From contig NZ_CP049864.1 of assembly GCF_011300685.1 (NCBI RefSeq), positions 1,914,885 through 1,978,884 on the forward strand: a stretch of DNA of 64,000 bases, read 5' to 3'. The first letter of the stretch is position 1; each line of letters begins with the position of its first letter. The translations under genes and the position numbers were made by a program. This DNA is from Lysobacter sp. HDW10. Its GTDB lineage: Bacteria; Pseudomonadota; Gammaproteobacteria; Xanthomonadales; Xanthomonadaceae. Below the pieces are notes generated by a model. It had not been told where the DNA came from. It saw nothing but the letters and a program-made list of their open reading frames with translations, and made no database searches. Positions 52,431-58,486 of the stretch are shown piece by piece.

Positions 52431-53285
52431 TCAGACCTCTGGAATTGCCCGGAGGTAGGCCTCACGCGCCTTACGCTCAGCCGCCGTTTCTTTGGGTCCG
52501 ACTGCAGAGACCTCTTCTACCCGCGGCTGGCTCGGCGCACCCCACGTTTCGTATTTCGGTTGACTGACTTCGGCTTGAACGCTGGGCAAAGGCTGCACGG
52601 GTTTTGATGCCTGTACGTGAACCACACTCGGCCGCGCAGCTTGAGCGGCTTGGGCTTTGTGCGCAGCTGCTTCCGCACGAGCGACACTCTGCTGCGAAAA
52701 TTTGTGCATTTCGTTATTGAAATTGCCAATCGCAGTTCGGATCACCCACAGCATCACCAGGAAGCTGATAGCCACAAGCAGCAAGCGAATGCCCAAGGGG
52801 ACGTCTTCTTTCTTTTTCGGCATACGGAAACCAGAGACAAAACTCAATTTGGCCGGCGCCACCTCTGTTTTCTCGATGTCGACAAGCGGGCCCACCATGT
52901 CGCGAAGCGCCCGACCATCCACAAGCTCAATCTGACCTGCTTTGTTTGCAGCTAGTTTGGCTGCGTGGGTGAATTCACCACTGGTCAGCAAAATTGCGCG
53001 TGTCGCTTGCTGTGTTGTCATCACACCGAGCAATTGATGAACTTCGTTGTGCGGCACCTGCCGCGTGTTCCAGTGCTTCACTTGGACGACGACGTATTCA
53101 TCACCTTTCCGAAGCTTTAGATCGATACCGCCGTCGTAGCGCTGCCCTGATGCGCCGCCTGTACCGACGTGCTCGACTTGGTAGCCCTGATTCTTGTAGT
53201 AAACGGCCAGAATGGATTCGAGCTGATCCCAGCGCACACGTGTCAACGCGTCGTCACTGGGTTTTCTAATGCGTTTGAGTCCCAT
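52431..53285 (-). CDS. Membrane-anchored Mrr-type restriction endonuclease
   Basis: A 284-residue protein. The N-terminal Mrr_cat domain (about 10-140) has the PD-(D/E)XK motif in the Mrr form, Asp55 in GGIDLKL and Gln68-Val-Lys70 in VVVQVKHW. One transmembrane helix follows at about 163-183 (LGIRLLLVAISFLVMLWVI), then a Gln/Ala-rich coiled segment and a Pro-rich tail. The nuclease thus faces the cytoplasm. Mrr-like enzymes cut methylated DNA or respond to stress. No methylase is present. ATG 53285 has GGGGGA upstream. Confidence 0.82.
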   Translation of the reverse strand: MGLKRIRKPSDDALTRVRWDQLESILAVYYKNQGYQVEHVGTGGASGQRYDGGIDLKLRKGDEYVVVQVKHWNTRQVPHNEVHQLLGVMTTQQATRAILLTSGEFTHAAKLAANKAGQIELVDGRALRDMVGPLVDIEKTEVAPAKLSFVSGFRMPKKKEDVPLGIRLLLVAISFLVMLWVIRTAIGNFNNEMHKFSQQSVARAEAAAHKAQAAQAARPSVVHVQASKPVQPLPSVQAEVSQPKYETWGAPSQPRVEEVSAVGPKETAAERKAREAYLRAIPEV

Positions 53286-53950
53286 GATTCCCCCCGAAAT
53301 CAATGCTTAGCGTAAAGACTGAAACGTGCACGCTGCCGGGGGAATTAAACGCAGCGCACAGTTAGTTTCAGGAAACGCCGTTTGAAGGCGTTTCGCAATC
53401 ATAGCGTGAGAATTCGGCCATAAAACAACATTTTCTGCCGTACTTACTGCATTTGCTATGAAGTGCTTAGCTAAATGGGGAGAAACTTCGAATATGTATG
53501 GCTTTGAACTTCCCGCATCAACGAGTTTGTCGCGTTCCGATATCCGGCAAAGGGCGGCCAAAAAGCACCAATGTTTAGAGATGCATGAGGAATATTAGAT
53601 GCAGCCTTTTGCTTCCCCTCAATTGGCCTTTAGCGAGTTGGCAGCGTGCATATGCGCCAATTTACTGTCTTTGAACTCTTTTTTCTGAACTGTGGTACGG
53701 GAGCTGTCAGAAAATTCTCCGTTGGCAATGACGATATTTAACCGGATCCCGAGCTGGCCCGACAACAGCAGAACCCTGAACCCCCTCAAATGGCATTGTG
53801 CGGTGTCTCGGACTTTTAACATAGCCAAAGCCTTGCCATCAGAAATTTTTTCCGACGCATTTCGCACTTTTCCAGTTCAGGAACGTGAACCCGATCCCGT
53901 TTCTACGGATTGCTACTATCTATTACATTCCTATCCATTGCGGTGCAGAC
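53286..53950. other. 665-base stretch without a convincing gene
   Basis: I see no gene with recognisable protein features here. Two short frames (minus 53619-53867 and plus 53692-53961) are present but lack good ribosome-binding sites and family-like motifs. The stretch is more AT-rich than the core genome. A hairpin GAAACGCC-GTTTGAA-GGCGTTTC lies at 53372-53394. It separates the Mrr-type gene from the DUF262 gene and may hold promoters for both, or decayed coding sequence. Confidence 0.6.
53372..53394. repeat. Small inverted repeat in the island leader
   Basis: GAAACGCC and GGCGTTTC are a perfect eight-base inverted repeat around a seven-base loop, about 85 bases upstream of the Mrr-type gene on its 5' side. 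Could be an operator or a terminator stem; no T run of note follows. Confidence 0.45.
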
Positions 53951-55006
53951 ATGAAACTTGACGAAAGCAAACCGTCAATCGCGAATCTTCGAGACATGAT
54001 TGCCCGAGGAGACTTGGTGGCGAACCACCAGTATCAGCGCTCTCCTGGACTATGGCCGAATTCCGCCCGAAGTTACTTTGTCGACACAATTTTGGAGGGT
54101 TATCCATTCCCCAAGATCTACCTCCATGAGTTTCTTGATAGAAAGTCCAAGCGAGTTCGAACCGAAATTGTCGACGGTCAGCAGAGAATTACGACAATTC
54201 ACGACTTCTTATCTGACAAGTTCGCGCTGGGCAGCAATTCGCCTAAGCACGCGGGTTTGCGCTTCTCTGATCTCGATGAGGATGCACAAGAGAAATTTCT
54301 CTTCTACACAGTATCCGTTGACGTGATCCGAGATGCTGGACGTACTGAAATACTCCAGATGTTTCGTCGAATGAATGCGTTCACGCTTCCTCTTAATGCA
54401 GCAGAAAAGAGGCATTCAGAATTCTTCGGCGAATTCAAAGATATGGTCAATCGAGTATTGGACAGCTTCACACTCTTGACTGAATGGGACATCTTCACGA
54501 CTCGACAGCTCGTCAGAATGGCTGACGCCGCTTTCATCGCGGATCTCGCGCTTGCGATGGAACAAGGCGTAGTAAGCACCAGCGACGCAAAGCTACATTC
54601 CATTTACAAGAAGCATGATTCAGAGGCGTCTTTCCCTCAGTCCGTTAAGACAGAACAAGTCTTGCTGGAGATATTCGGTGTGATCGCGCGAGACTTATCG
54701 CGCATTCGTGGATCGTATATGACAAAGCCCTTTGCCCTACATGCGCTTTGGTGCGCAATTTACCACAACAAATACGGGCTTCCTGGATTTGATGCATCGT
54801 CGGGTATTCCCCCGATTGGCGCAGCCCTGGGCTGTGAACCAGAAAGAGCGACTGCAAATTTGCTCGAGCTTTCAGCTGCGCACGAAAGCAAAGATATGAG
54901 CCGGTTTCCAGAGTATGTTGATGCAATGAGCGCAGGATCCAATCGTGAGCGACAAAGACATGAACGCATAGCAATCATCTGTCGCGCACTTCGCAACCAA
55001 CTGTAG
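53951..55006 (+). CDS. DUF262 (ParB/Srx-fold) protein, defence-associated
   Basis: A 351-residue protein with an N-terminal DUF262 domain. The hallmark DGQQR lies at residues 75-79 in EIVDGQQRITTIHDFL, preceded by YQRSPGLWPNSARSYFVDTILEGYP as in related proteins (read in parts). DUF262 domains are related to ParB/sulfiredoxin folds and in GmrSD- and BrxU-type enzymes bind or hydrolyse nucleotides and contribute to DNA cutting. Here the protein is short and has no DUF1524 HNH tail. The HEPN gene follows after 14 bases. Codon use is more AT-rich than neighbours. ATG 53951 is chosen; GTG 53885 is in frame. Confidence 0.83.
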   Translation: MKLDESKPSIANLRDMIARGDLVANHQYQRSPGLWPNSARSYFVDTILEGYPFPKIYLHEFLDRKSKRVRTEIVDGQQRITTIHDFLSDKFALGSNSPKHAGLRFSDLDEDAQEKFLFYTVSVDVIRDAGRTEILQMFRRMNAFTLPLNAAEKRHSEFFGEFKDMVNRVLDSFTLLTEWDIFTTRQLVRMADAAFIADLALAMEQGVVSTSDAKLHSIYKKHDSEASFPQSVKTEQVLLEIFGVIARDLSRIRGSYMTKPFALHALWCAIYHNKYGLPGFDASSGIPPIGAALGCEPERATANLLELSAAHESKDMSRFPEYVDAMSAGSNRERQRHERIAIICRALRNQL

Positions 55007-55020
55007 GCCGGACGATCTGC

Positions 55021-55665
55021 GTGAACTTGATGCCCCTGCAATTTATGTTGCATGAGCAGCTTTCGCGTTGCGAACGCGCCTTCCGTGAAGCGCTTACGTA
55101 CGACTCTTTGACGGGCAGAATCCAGCGCAGGCACCTAATGGAGGGAGCGCTTTCCGATGCATGGCAGGCCTATTGCTCGTTTGCACGGAATGTTGCGATC
55201 CATTCCAGTCTCGGCTGCACAACCGCCAATGGCACAGTACATGCGGCCTCAGTAAACCCAAGTACTTGGCAGCGGTCTTCCTATATAGCCATTCGGGCAG
55301 CAAAAGGCCACAGCATAAATTTGGCACAAACAAACACTGAATTGTGGAAAGAACCAACTTGGGGCGACCCAGGCAAATCCGTCAGCATTATCACGGCATT
55401 GAATCCGGGAAATGCGAGAACGCTGATTAGCCACTTTGCTGGAGGCCTCTTGGGGCCAAAACATTGTCAGATTGTAAGAAATGCGTGCGCCCACAGAAAT
55501 CATCAAACAAAAGCGGACGTAGAGGCTTTGGCGACGCACTACTTAGCTTCAAAAATTACCTTTCCAAGCGAAGCAATGCTTTGGCGGGATCCACATACTT
55601 CGGACTTTGCGTTTATTTGTTGGCTCGACGATTTACGTACCATCTCAGAAGGCGCAATCAAATAG
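55021..55665 (+). CDS. HEPN-domain candidate ribonuclease/partner of DUF262 protein
   Basis: A 214-residue, mostly helical protein. It carries the HEPN motif R-x4-H as Arg153-Asn-Ala-Cys-Ala-His158 in IVRNACAHRNHQ, with supporting helices upstream. It is cotranscribed with the DUF262 gene (14-base gap), an arrangement known for MAE_28990-type HEPN proteins. HEPN proteins in defence loci are often RNases. I cannot name the family with certainty. GTG 55021 or ATG 55030 may be the start. Confidence 0.7.
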   Translation: MNLMPLQFMLHEQLSRCERAFREALTYDSLTGRIQRRHLMEGALSDAWQAYCSFARNVAIHSSLGCTTANGTVHAASVNPSTWQRSSYIAIRAAKGHSINLAQTNTELWKEPTWGDPGKSVSIITALNPGNARTLISHFAGGLLGPKHCQIVRNACAHRNHQTKADVEALATHYLASKITFPSEAMLWRDPHTSDFAFICWLDDLRTISEGAIK

Positions 55666-55819
55666 GGCTTGGCGAATAGAACGTAGCCTTCGGCAGCGGC
55701 AAAGAATAATGCTTGACTGCTCTCGTTTCTCGCGACAAAGACATCAACCAGCACTTCACGCCAACGTTCGAGAAGGATCGAGTATGGAATAGGTCCGTCT
55801 TTCCGACGTCGGCTTCAAA

Positions 55820-55849
55820 CAAATTATTCATACGTTTGTAAATAATTTG
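55820..55849. repeat. AT-rich inverted repeat at the convergence point
   Basis: CAAATTATT and AATAATTTG form a perfect nine-base inverted repeat around a 12-base loop, lying where the DUF262-HEPN and ATPase-HNH gene pairs meet. It overlaps the HNH stop codon. It may be a bidirectional terminator or a trace of recombination. Confidence 0.6.
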
Positions 55850-56708
55850 CCGGAAACAACAGACTCTTGCGCACTTCTAGAATTCCTCCCTCACAGAACC
55901 AAGCTGACTCAGACAGAGCCTCAAACAGTGCAGCTTGCCACGAATTATTGAAAACGAGCCTACGTTTCTTTGCTTGTAAAACGAGATGCGATTGGATCTC
56001 TAACGGCTTCGAGAGTAGCCGAGCATCATCCATGTCGATGTAGATATTCACAAGTTCTGATCCGGCGTGAGCAGCGTATAGATCCGACAAGCGATATGCC
56101 TTGAAATGTGATGACACAATACTGTTTTTTACGCTTGACCAAGTTGGGATACCACGCACATAAAACAAAATCCCAGGAGGGCTATCCGGCACAACTTCTG
56201 CGACCAACCATTTCTGATCATCAACGTCATCAAAGTATGGGTGGAGCGTCTGCTCCCCTGCATCATTCGGTCGCTTCTGGCTCGAATCTACATTGCAGTC
56301 TTTGCACGCAGGTACAAGATTAATGGGAGTGACCGCAAACGAAGGATGGCGCCCCTTAGGGAGGTAGTGGTCAAGAGTTGAAACGACGCGTTGATTGCAG
56401 AGAGGGCAAATGTTTCCAGGAGCTTTACGAAGCAGCTCGTAGATGTCGCGAGTCGGCCCGCCAACTCGCACGAAAGTTTGTGAATAGAGCTTAGAGAGTT
56501 CGTCGCCAGTAACGTCTCCAACCGCGCTGGATTCTTCGAATAAATATAGCTCAGATTTTTCAGCGCGCTCATCATAAAGCTTCTCAGCTTGGGACAAGTA
56601 AGAGTTGATAGCCTCAAATCTCTTCCGCCTACCATGGTTTCCGATGCTAGATACACATTTATCGAAGACGTCTTTTAGCTTCGCGGAAGGCGCAGGAATC
56701 TTCTTCAC
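55824..56708 (-). CDS. HNH endonuclease, partner of the adjacent ATPase (PtuB-like)
   Basis: A 294-residue protein. Residues 1-95 are helical; the HNH module has Cys101-Pro-Leu-Cys104, DHYLPK at 113-118 with the catalytic His114, and NLVPACKDCN at 130-139 (Asn130; zinc Cys135 and Cys138). A C-terminal half of about 155 residues follows with no recognised motif. Start is GTG overlapping the ATPase stop by four bases (GTGA), so the two proteins are made together. An ATPase-HNH pair is the Septu (PtuA-PtuB) plan. Confidence 0.82.
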   Translation of the reverse strand: MKKIPAPSAKLKDVFDKCVSSIGNHGRRKRFEAINSYLSQAEKLYDERAEKSELYLFEESSAVGDVTGDELSKLYSQTFVRVGGPTRDIYELLRKAPGNICPLCNQRVVSTLDHYLPKGRHPSFAVTPINLVPACKDCNVDSSQKRPNDAGEQTLHPYFDDVDDQKWLVAEVVPDSPPGILFYVRGIPTWSSVKNSIVSSHFKAYRLSDLYAAHAGSELVNIYIDMDDARLLSKPLEIQSHLVLQAKKRRLVFNNSWQAALFEALSESAWFCEGGILEVRKSLLFPANYLQTYE

Positions 56709-58258
56709 TGCACAATTTCCTTTCGCAGCATCATGCCGCGCGCAATTGCCGAACCTTCAGCGCCAAGCTGTCCGCTAAAGGTGCTCATTAGCTCTTCGAA
56801 GTTTGAACTATTTCTTGAAGCCTCAAGCAAGAGACGATGAAACCCTGAGTGTGTCACCTCCAAGCTAAAGATTTCACGACTAAGGCGCCCTACGTTCTCT
56901 CCAAAGGTCTCAAGAGAAGGCCGGTAAGTTTCTGAAGTTCTGCCGCGCCTCTCCAACACCCAAACACAGGAAGCTGGAACCTCTTGCAGGACCACAGGAG
57001 AGTGTGTAGCAACAATTGCCACGCCGTTTCGCGACGTCAACAACTCTGAAACGCTCCTGATGTATGCAGAAAGCAAGGGTGGATGAAGATGCCCTTCAGG
57101 TTCGTCCAATAGAACCAAAGTCCGCTCGTCGACTAACTCCACTAGCTTGGTAATTGATAATAGAACAATCTTGTGACCGGAACTGAGTCGTTTCGCGAAA
57201 TAGTATTTTGCTTTCTCAGCCCAAGAACCTTCATCTAGATTCAGCAAACTGAGCGGATCCGCGTCAGAGAATACGGGGTCGTTGTACAACTGCCCCACGG
57301 CTTTTGTCCATCGGTCTCGCCTTGGACCACGACGGCAAGACGAGAAACTCGAACTAAAATCGTCCGCGAGCTGCTCAGGATTTCGAGTAATTCGACTTCC
57401 TGTATCGCCATCAATGGAATGCAAACCTACAGAATGAGCTGCAATCCTAGTCTTGGGCTCAGGAAGAACGAAGTCATCAAATGCGCTAAATGACAAAGAC
57501 ACCAAACCGGCAAAGCCTGGGTCTCCGTCGTTCGATACTTCTTGTTCTCGAAAAGTAAGTGTTCCAACTGGGCCGCCATCTATATCTTGATTGTATCCAA
57601 GGAGACTGTGCGCTAGTCCCTGCATGAATCTCGTTTTTCCTACTCCATTTCGGCCAATGATCACGTGCACATTGGTGGGAGGGGCTGATTGCGGGGTGAC
57701 GACAAATGTGGGAGCCACAGCAGGCGCCAAAATGTTTCCAGATGCGGGGAACTCGTACTTGAAACTATAGGGCGTCAGCGTTGCGTCCCCTTTCACCAAA
57801 CGATTGAAACGAGTTCGTACAGTCGTCGCCGAAACAAATCTGAGGAGCGATTCATAAACCACCTCTTCGCCTTCAACTTTGGCAAATAAGGCCGGATCGA
57901 AGGCGATATCGCGCAGCCCTAACAAGATTGCATTTTTTTCTTCAGATGAAAGGTTTGCGAGTGTTTCGTAGTAGTTCTCACTCTGGCCTAAAGAGAAGTA
58001 TTCCTCGGAGAGTGATGTGAACTGAGAGGGCAGGTGCGGGGCCCTTACACCGAGCTGAACCACATCGCCTGGCTTGAGGCCATAACTTCCAATCTTTACA
58101 TTACCTAATTCGTGCAGAGTACCTTTGCGGTCAAAAACAAATAGCTGGAATTGAGTCCTGAATTTCCTCCAGTCATCCCAACGATCAATTTTTAGATAGC
58201 TTCGAGATGTACCCGCTGAGGGGAGCGATTCGTTCCATTCAATGACTTGAAACTCCAT
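56705..58258 (-). CDS. AAA/ABC-type ATPase of an ATPase-HNH defence pair (PtuA-like)
   Basis: A 517-residue ATPase. Residues 1-195 are a separate N-terminal region without recognisable motif. Walker A is GRNGVGKT at 202-209, the ABC-like signature is RLSSGHK around 357-363, Walker B is LVLLDEPEGH at 381-390 and the H-loop is ATHSPVV at 417-423. This is the AAA_21/SMC-like ATPase seen in OLD, RecF-like and Septu PtuA proteins. It has no TOPRIM domain, so it is not an OLD nuclease. With the coupled HNH gene it forms a two-gene module. Confidence 0.83.
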   Translation of the reverse strand: MEFQVIEWNESLPSAGTSRSYLKIDRWDDWRKFRTQFQLFVFDRKGTLHELGNVKIGSYGLKPGDVVQLGVRAPHLPSQFTSLSEEYFSLGQSENYYETLANLSSEEKNAILLGLRDIAFDPALFAKVEGEEVVYESLLRFVSATTVRTRFNRLVKGDATLTPYSFKYEFPASGNILAPAVAPTFVVTPQSAPPTNVHVIIGRNGVGKTRFMQGLAHSLLGYNQDIDGGPVGTLTFREQEVSNDGDPGFAGLVSLSFSAFDDFVLPEPKTRIAAHSVGLHSIDGDTGSRITRNPEQLADDFSSSFSSCRRGPRRDRWTKAVGQLYNDPVFSDADPLSLLNLDEGSWAEKAKYYFAKRLSSGHKIVLLSITKLVELVDERTLVLLDEPEGHLHPPLLSAYIRSVSELLTSRNGVAIVATHSPVVLQEVPASCVWVLERRGRTSETYRPSLETFGENVGRLSREIFSLEVTHSGFHRLLLEASRNSSNFEELMSTFSGQLGAEGSAIARGMMLRKEIVQ

Positions 58259-58486
58259 GCCACGCCCCTGATCTCTCTAAATGAATAAATTCTTTGCTCG
58301 AAAGTGCCGCCAGCTTCTAATGTCGAATGGAAAGTGTTCCCAAATCAACAGGCTTCAGGCGTTAAATTGCCGACACAAGGAAACCCGATGAAGTTGAGTT
58401 TTCAGCTGGCTCTTTCGAATTCCATTTCCAAACTTAAGCAAACCGCACAAAAGCTCTTGCAAATAGTTCGAACCACAAGCGGTGCG
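58259..58486. other. Intergenic region between ATPase and icmF genes
   Basis: 228 bases upstream of the ATPase gene and downstream of icmF. It should hold the promoter of the ATPase-HNH pair. A short plus-strand frame begins at ATG 58388 but runs antisense into icmF and is not considered real. No direct repeat, tRNA or clear attachment site is seen. Confidence 0.5.

Follow-up and report, generated by a model that had tools for sequence, protein, structure and literature searches.

A Septu-like ATPase-HNH gene pair of Lysobacter related to phage lambda ea59-ea31 and distinguished by a conserved N-terminal domain

Introduction

Is the ATPase-HNH gene pair found in the genome of Lysobacter sp. 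HDW10 an ordinary Septu system, or does the additional N-terminal region of its ATPase place it in a family of its own? The pair lies in the window analyzed here, a stretch of 64,000 nucleotides (assembly GCF_011300685.1, contig NZ_CP049864.1, forward-strand positions 1,914,885 to 1,978,884), to which all coordinates below refer. A first-pass annotation made from the letters alone had described a Septu-like module with an extra N-terminal region that might be a variant or a distinct family. Here we follow up this proposal using sequence models, predicted structures, and the genomic and phage relatives of the pair.

Results

Gene layout and catalytic motifs

Both open reading frames of the proposed module were confirmed on the reverse strand between positions 55824 and 58258. 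The first encodes the ATPase (517 aa, ATG start, 56705..58258), a member of the PDC-M01A/Ea59 family, and the second the HNH nuclease (294 aa, GTG start, 55824..56708), of the PDC-M01B/Ea31 family; both are intact, and the stop of the former overlaps the start of the latter by 4 bp (GTGA). The motifs fall where they had been assigned. The ATPase, on the reverse strand throughout, harbors a Walker A motif (GRNGVGKT, residues 202-209, 57632..57655), an ABC signature (RLSSGHK, residues 357-363, 57170..57190) and a Walker B motif (VLLDEPEGHL, residues 381-390, 57089..57118), and across an alignment of 58 sequences residues K208, S359, G361, D385, E386 and H419 are invariant. The HNH core (56292..56408, reverse strand) comprises C101-x2-C104, D113-H114, N130 and C135-x2-C138, with the motif NLVPACKDCN at residues 130-139, and its seven residues are retained in 61 of 61 sequences, including lambda Ea31. 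Since the catalytic residues are invariant across both alignments, the motifs are not a product of chance.

The association of the two genes is equally constant. An HNH homologue lies, at a median gap of -4 bp, on the same strand immediately downstream of all 55 distinct, complete family ATPases counted; these came from viral contigs as well as from genomes and prophages. Four ATPases had no HNH partner: the genes of three run to the last base of their contig, and the remaining one is distant and does not belong to the family. Sequence and structure prediction show that the first gene encodes an ATPase of the ABC/SMC-like type whose nucleotide site is complete, and that its translation is coupled to that of an HNH nuclease of the zinc-finger type. 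A promoter and terminator scan gave nothing beyond chance expectation.

Family membership

Comparison with the PADLOC library assigned both proteins over their full length. The ATPase aligned with the PDC-M01A model PDLC04235 (residues 1-513 to positions 1-505 of 510, 614 bits, E = 4e-185) and the HNH protein with the PDC-M01B model PDLC04264 (residues 1-277 to positions 1-279 of 282, 311 bits, E = 2e-93), and judged by these sequence matches the pair is a member of PDC-M01. The ATPase also matched, end to end, the PADLOC model labelled both PtuA1 and PtuA (PDLC00282, residues 1-514, 540 bits), the only full-length match among the PtuA models in the PADLOC matches listed, the remainder covering part of the ATPase domain. 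The single PtuB model tried individually, PDLC00325, matched the HNH protein weakly and within the HNH core (E = 8.9e-5, 57 of 213 positions). Pfam classified the ATPase as AAA_21/AAA_15 and gave a sub-threshold HNH match, the NCBIfam search returned no match above its cut-offs for either protein, and PHROGs contains both (phrog_8066 and phrog_10378). Among proteins of solved structure, sequence similarity to PtuA covers the ATPase core and that to PtuB the HNH core.

The two labels overlap in the literature, a survey of the Bacillus cereus group having recorded 41 cases in which the same proteins were called both Septu and PDC-M01 (PMC11811056); our literature search found no published description of a mechanism for PDC-M01, an unpublished PADLOC candidate system. 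Alignment to PtuA/PtuB over the whole chain, extra parts included, which the first-pass annotation had named as the mark of ordinary Septu, gives a divided result: it is obtained with PDLC00282 and is not obtained with solved PtuA, which is without the N-terminal domain. The pair is not canonical Septu, because the architecture of solved PtuA is not matched and the PADLOC PtuA label is broader. Its family is a separate clade related to Septu, so the suggestion of a distinct family was right about the clade, which had nevertheless already been catalogued as PDC-M01.

Predicted structures

AlphaFold2 models were obtained with mean pLDDT values of 95 for the HNH protein and 90 for the ATPase. Residues ~148-517 of the ATPase model align to the PtuA proteins of Septu and retron I-A systems over ~230-310 residues with Z scores of ~17 (up to 17.6), against 14 and below for unrelated ABC/SMC heads. 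The HNH model aligns to Septu PtuB (8eea_G) with a Z score of 9.0 and an rmsd of 5.8 Å over 194 residues, spanning model residues 1-268, and to retron PtuB with Z scores of up to 10.4, compared with 5.4 and below for other HNH proteins. The annotation as a Septu-like module with an extra N-terminal region was right.

The C-terminal half of the HNH protein (residues 140-294, 55827..56291, reverse strand), previously left unassigned, is helical in the model and resembles PtuB to about residue 268, the PtuB chains aligning through residues 263-271. As modelled, the protein has the PtuB fold over its length to about residue 268, and this half is not unusual. The rmsd of ~6 Å to PtuB means either that the sub-domains would be arranged differently or that the models are approximate, and since the rmsd values are high (4-6 Å) the quaternary assembly may differ from that of Septu.

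The extra N-terminal domain of the ATPase

The ATPase begins with an extra domain (residues 1-160, 57779..58258, reverse strand) that is beta-rich and then helical in the AlphaFold2 model. In the structural alignment, residue 1 of Septu PtuA (8ee4_D, 8eea_C) corresponds to model residue 163, which would leave about 160 extra residues. The Walker lysine of Septu EcB88 PtuA is K43, placing some 40 residues ahead of Walker A (PMC13096335). The extra N-terminus first put at 195 residues is real and conserved, but its length is closer to 160, because PtuA itself has about 40 residues before Walker A.

Conservation of the domain is pronounced. Among 58 sequences, R140 is invariant, W27, D29 and Y97 are kept in 57, D117 in 55 and S89 in 54; the latter S and Y97 belong to the motif FSLGQSENYY (residues 88-97, 57968..57997, reverse strand), whose family form is FS(L/I/V)Gx4YY. 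Every family branch collected retains the domain, and a profile of it, run on 398 genomes of the phylum, picked out the seven already identified with the full ATPase model. Searches for relatives elsewhere gave little: a Pfam scan of 20 family members yielded for this domain only chance matches to single members, a PDB profile search returned short and weak matches, protein A helices among them, that we judged to be chance, the matches of the structural search with the whole ATPase model were mostly to the ATPase fold, and a search of predicted viral structures found generic ABC ATPases and no informative match to the domain.

One exception in the PADLOC library is PDC-S34 (PDLC05000), whose C-terminal ~100 positions (~313-415) match the N-terminal domain, with E values of 2e-12 and 3e-9 for two family members. 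The first 265 positions of this model match genome proteins that we read from their sequence as HAD-like phosphatases; no fusion of the domain to a HAD phosphatase occurred in the 398 genomes of the phylum. Architecture also varies within the family. In one relative (L024/L031, G516:C9:119568-121075) the ATPase is split into an N-domain ORF (132 aa) and an ATPase ORF (380 aa) that overlap by 4 bp near the domain boundary, which could represent a two-subunit form or a frameshift, and a further 110-180 residues precede the domain in L062 and L064 (ORFs of 652 and 657 aa) and in PADLOC PDLC04240.

Phage lambda and other mobile relatives

A tblastn search of phage records led to lambda and other lambdoid phages. 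Lambda Ea59 aligned with the ATPase over residues 1-514 (37% identity) and Ea31 with the HNH protein over residues 1-274 (26% identity). In lambda, ea31, annotated as an HNH endonuclease, directly follows ea59 with a 4-bp overlap, and the two proteins match the same PDC-M01 models in PADLOC over their full length with the catalytic residues kept. Both genes are non-essential and the role of ea59 is unknown (PMC10695390); in a two-hybrid map of lambda, Ea59 has a single listed interaction, and Ea31 is not mentioned by name in the text. A literature search found no paper naming both ea59 and Septu. A 1994 paper by Zhou et al., as far as its title tells (cited in PMC2653506), reports phage resistance from an 'ea59-like' gene of Streptomyces, and Streptomyces plasmids carry a family ATPase with a second gene behind it.

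The family is also present on other plasmids, on viral contigs and in an E. coli prophage at icd, beside an integrase. Among 5,426 E. coli genomes, the icd-prophage variant was found in 90 and most or all of the lambda variant in 68. On an Acinetobacter plasmid the pair adjoins a restriction endonuclease, a methyltransferase and a Vsr gene. In the DE3 prophages of BL21(DE3) and its relatives no more than the initial 870 bases of the pair remain, so ea59-ea31 is truncated in DE3 expression strains.

Genomic setting and distribution

The pair lies behind icmF in an insert (53300..58486) recognizable from the composition profile, with a GC content of ~48-50% against 55-56% on either side. A homologue of M01A was found in none of the 16 other genomes of the genus and is patchy beyond it: at the level of the family 15 of 297 genomes have one, and at that of the phylum 7 of 398. 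In some congeners the slot behind icmF holds SIR2, SIR2 with HerA, a PADLOC dGTPase, a D12 DNA methyltransferase together with a ParB-like gene, or a RES toxin (congener loci L111, L113, L119, L120 and L108); an HSP90-like ATPase also occurs there, and in several congeners ordinary genes follow icmF. The position looks like a defense hotspot.

The same insert contains a converging pair on the forward strand (53885-55665), composed of a DUF262/GmrSD_N protein, which matches the PADLOC models NsnA (E = 2e-30) and PD-T4-2_A (E = 3e-11), and a protein of 214 aa that matches nothing in the libraries but contains an R-x4-H motif (RNACAH) of the kind seen in HEPN RNases. These two genes are possibly an independent defense module. 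Considered as a third component of the ATPase-HNH system they were rejected: the other collected loci, many of which include little flanking sequence, hold no homologues except the pair's own copies. At 52431-53303, on the reverse strand, lies a protein with an Mrr_cat-type restriction endonuclease domain and an apparent transmembrane segment; 3 of the 16 congeners have divergent homologues of it, there several kb or more from icmF.

Discussion

Taking this evidence together, we consider it quite probable that the pair was acquired horizontally and defends against phages in the manner of Septu, as an ATP-gated HNH nuclease with the N-terminal domain as its sensor or regulator. The ATPase would dimerize on ATP and assemble with the HNH protein, keeping it inactive, and upon infection nucleotide turnover or release would free the HNH protein to cut nucleic acid. 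The target may be phage DNA or, following the precedent of retron-Eco7 and Septu EcB88, a host tRNA; cleavage would halt the production of phage, and the cell itself would probably be sacrificed. The N-terminal domain, the best candidate for sensing, would detect a signal of infection or set specificity, a role that may be filled by the RT-msDNA part in retrons, while Septu has no such domain. Lambda would most likely carry ea59-ea31 so that the lysogen excludes other phages. Points against this reading are the confinement of sequence similarity with solved PtuA and PtuB to the two cores, the high structural rmsd and, for lambda, the two-hybrid map with its single Ea59 interaction and no mention of Ea31. 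Studies of the better-known systems provide the framework: defense by Septu EcB88 requires the Walker A/B and HNH residues (PMC13096335), tRNA-Tyr is depleted by retron-Eco7 PtuAB and cleaved by Septu EcB88 (PMC11555353, PMC13096335), and for PtuAB of E. coli ATCC 25922 an action on nicked DNA has been reported (PMC11555353, PMC13096335).

The pair could instead simply be Septu, with an inconsequential longer N-terminus on PtuA and the known trigger and target. The 540-bit full-length match to PDLC00282, the overlapping Septu and PDC-M01 calls (PMC11811056) and the predicted PtuA and PtuB folds speak in its favor, but the other listed PtuA models cover part of the ATPase, the PtuB match is weak and confined to the HNH core, and the N-terminal domain with its invariant Arg is conserved across the family. 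Because of this conservation the domain is unlikely to be ornamental, and plain Septu seems to us an unlikely account. An SbcCD/RecN-type module of DNA repair or recombination, serving the replication of mobile elements and not defense, would likewise combine an ABC/SMC-like ATPase with a nuclease, and it agrees with carriage by temperate phages and with a non-essential lambda ea59 of unknown role (PMC10695390). The patchy presence (15/297 and 7/398 genomes), the frequent occupation of the insertion slot by defense genes, the antiphage PtuA/PtuB as nearest structural matches and, as its title indicates, the report of an ea59-like phage-resistance gene (cited in PMC2653506) argue otherwise and make a repair function quite improbable.

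The overlap of the two genes and their frequency on plasmids and prophages could also suggest a toxin-antitoxin-like pair that stabilizes mobile elements, the ATPase restraining an HNH toxin and phage defense being a side effect, and retron-Eco7 PtuAB without msDNA/RT does stop growth (PMC11555353). Neither PtuA alone nor PtuB alone of that retron is toxic, however (PMC11555353), so the ATPase and HNH protein are better regarded as one effector than as toxin and antitoxin, and we find this explanation very improbable.

Beyond the Septu-like antiphage module that we prefer, it is a real possibility, on the doubtful side, that Ea59-Ea31/PDC-M01 constitutes a sister class of Septu with a mechanism of its own, with the N-terminal domain as infection sensor and the lambda copy as a working superinfection exclusion system. 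If so, the domain would be a sensor that can be carried from one system to another, given its pairing with a HAD-like phosphatase domain in PDC-S34.

As an annotation the result is unremarkable, adding a further member to a candidate defense family that was already catalogued. Its value is in the connection: lambda ea59 and ea31, to which the papers found assign no function, are tied to the Septu/PtuAB machinery and, through the title cited in PMC2653506, to a little-noticed phage-resistance report of 1994, and the question of their function becomes a simple laboratory experiment in E. coli. The lambda homology, together with the low-GC insert behind icmF and the defense-type genes found there in relatives, extends the first-pass annotation. 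The identification in lambda, which is the most useful lead, and the family-defining N-terminal domain, a likely phage sensor, are the parts worth following.

Comparison with known systems

With PDC-M01 the pair shares gene order, coupling and the end-to-end match of both proteins, and no difference was found. Lambda ea59-ea31 differs in being prophage-borne, next to attP. Septu of E. coli (8eea, 8ee4) has in common with it the two-gene plan of ATPase then HNH and, according to the predicted models, the PtuA and PtuB folds; H114 and N130 stand 16 residues apart, as do H75 and N91, two residues mutated in PtuB of Septu EcB88. Septu differs in that solved PtuA has no counterpart of ATPase residues 1-160 and that sequence similarity is confined to the cores. 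The PtuAB effectors of retron I-A (Ec78/Eco7, Ec83) also align, to residues 148-517 of the ATPase and to most of the HNH chain, and residue 46 of retron Ec78 PtuA corresponds to model residue 148, only about 50 residues preceding the shared fold in retron PtuA. Membership in retron I-A was rejected: the neighbors of the pair are icmF and the DUF262/HEPN-like genes, with no reverse transcriptase among the adjacent genes.
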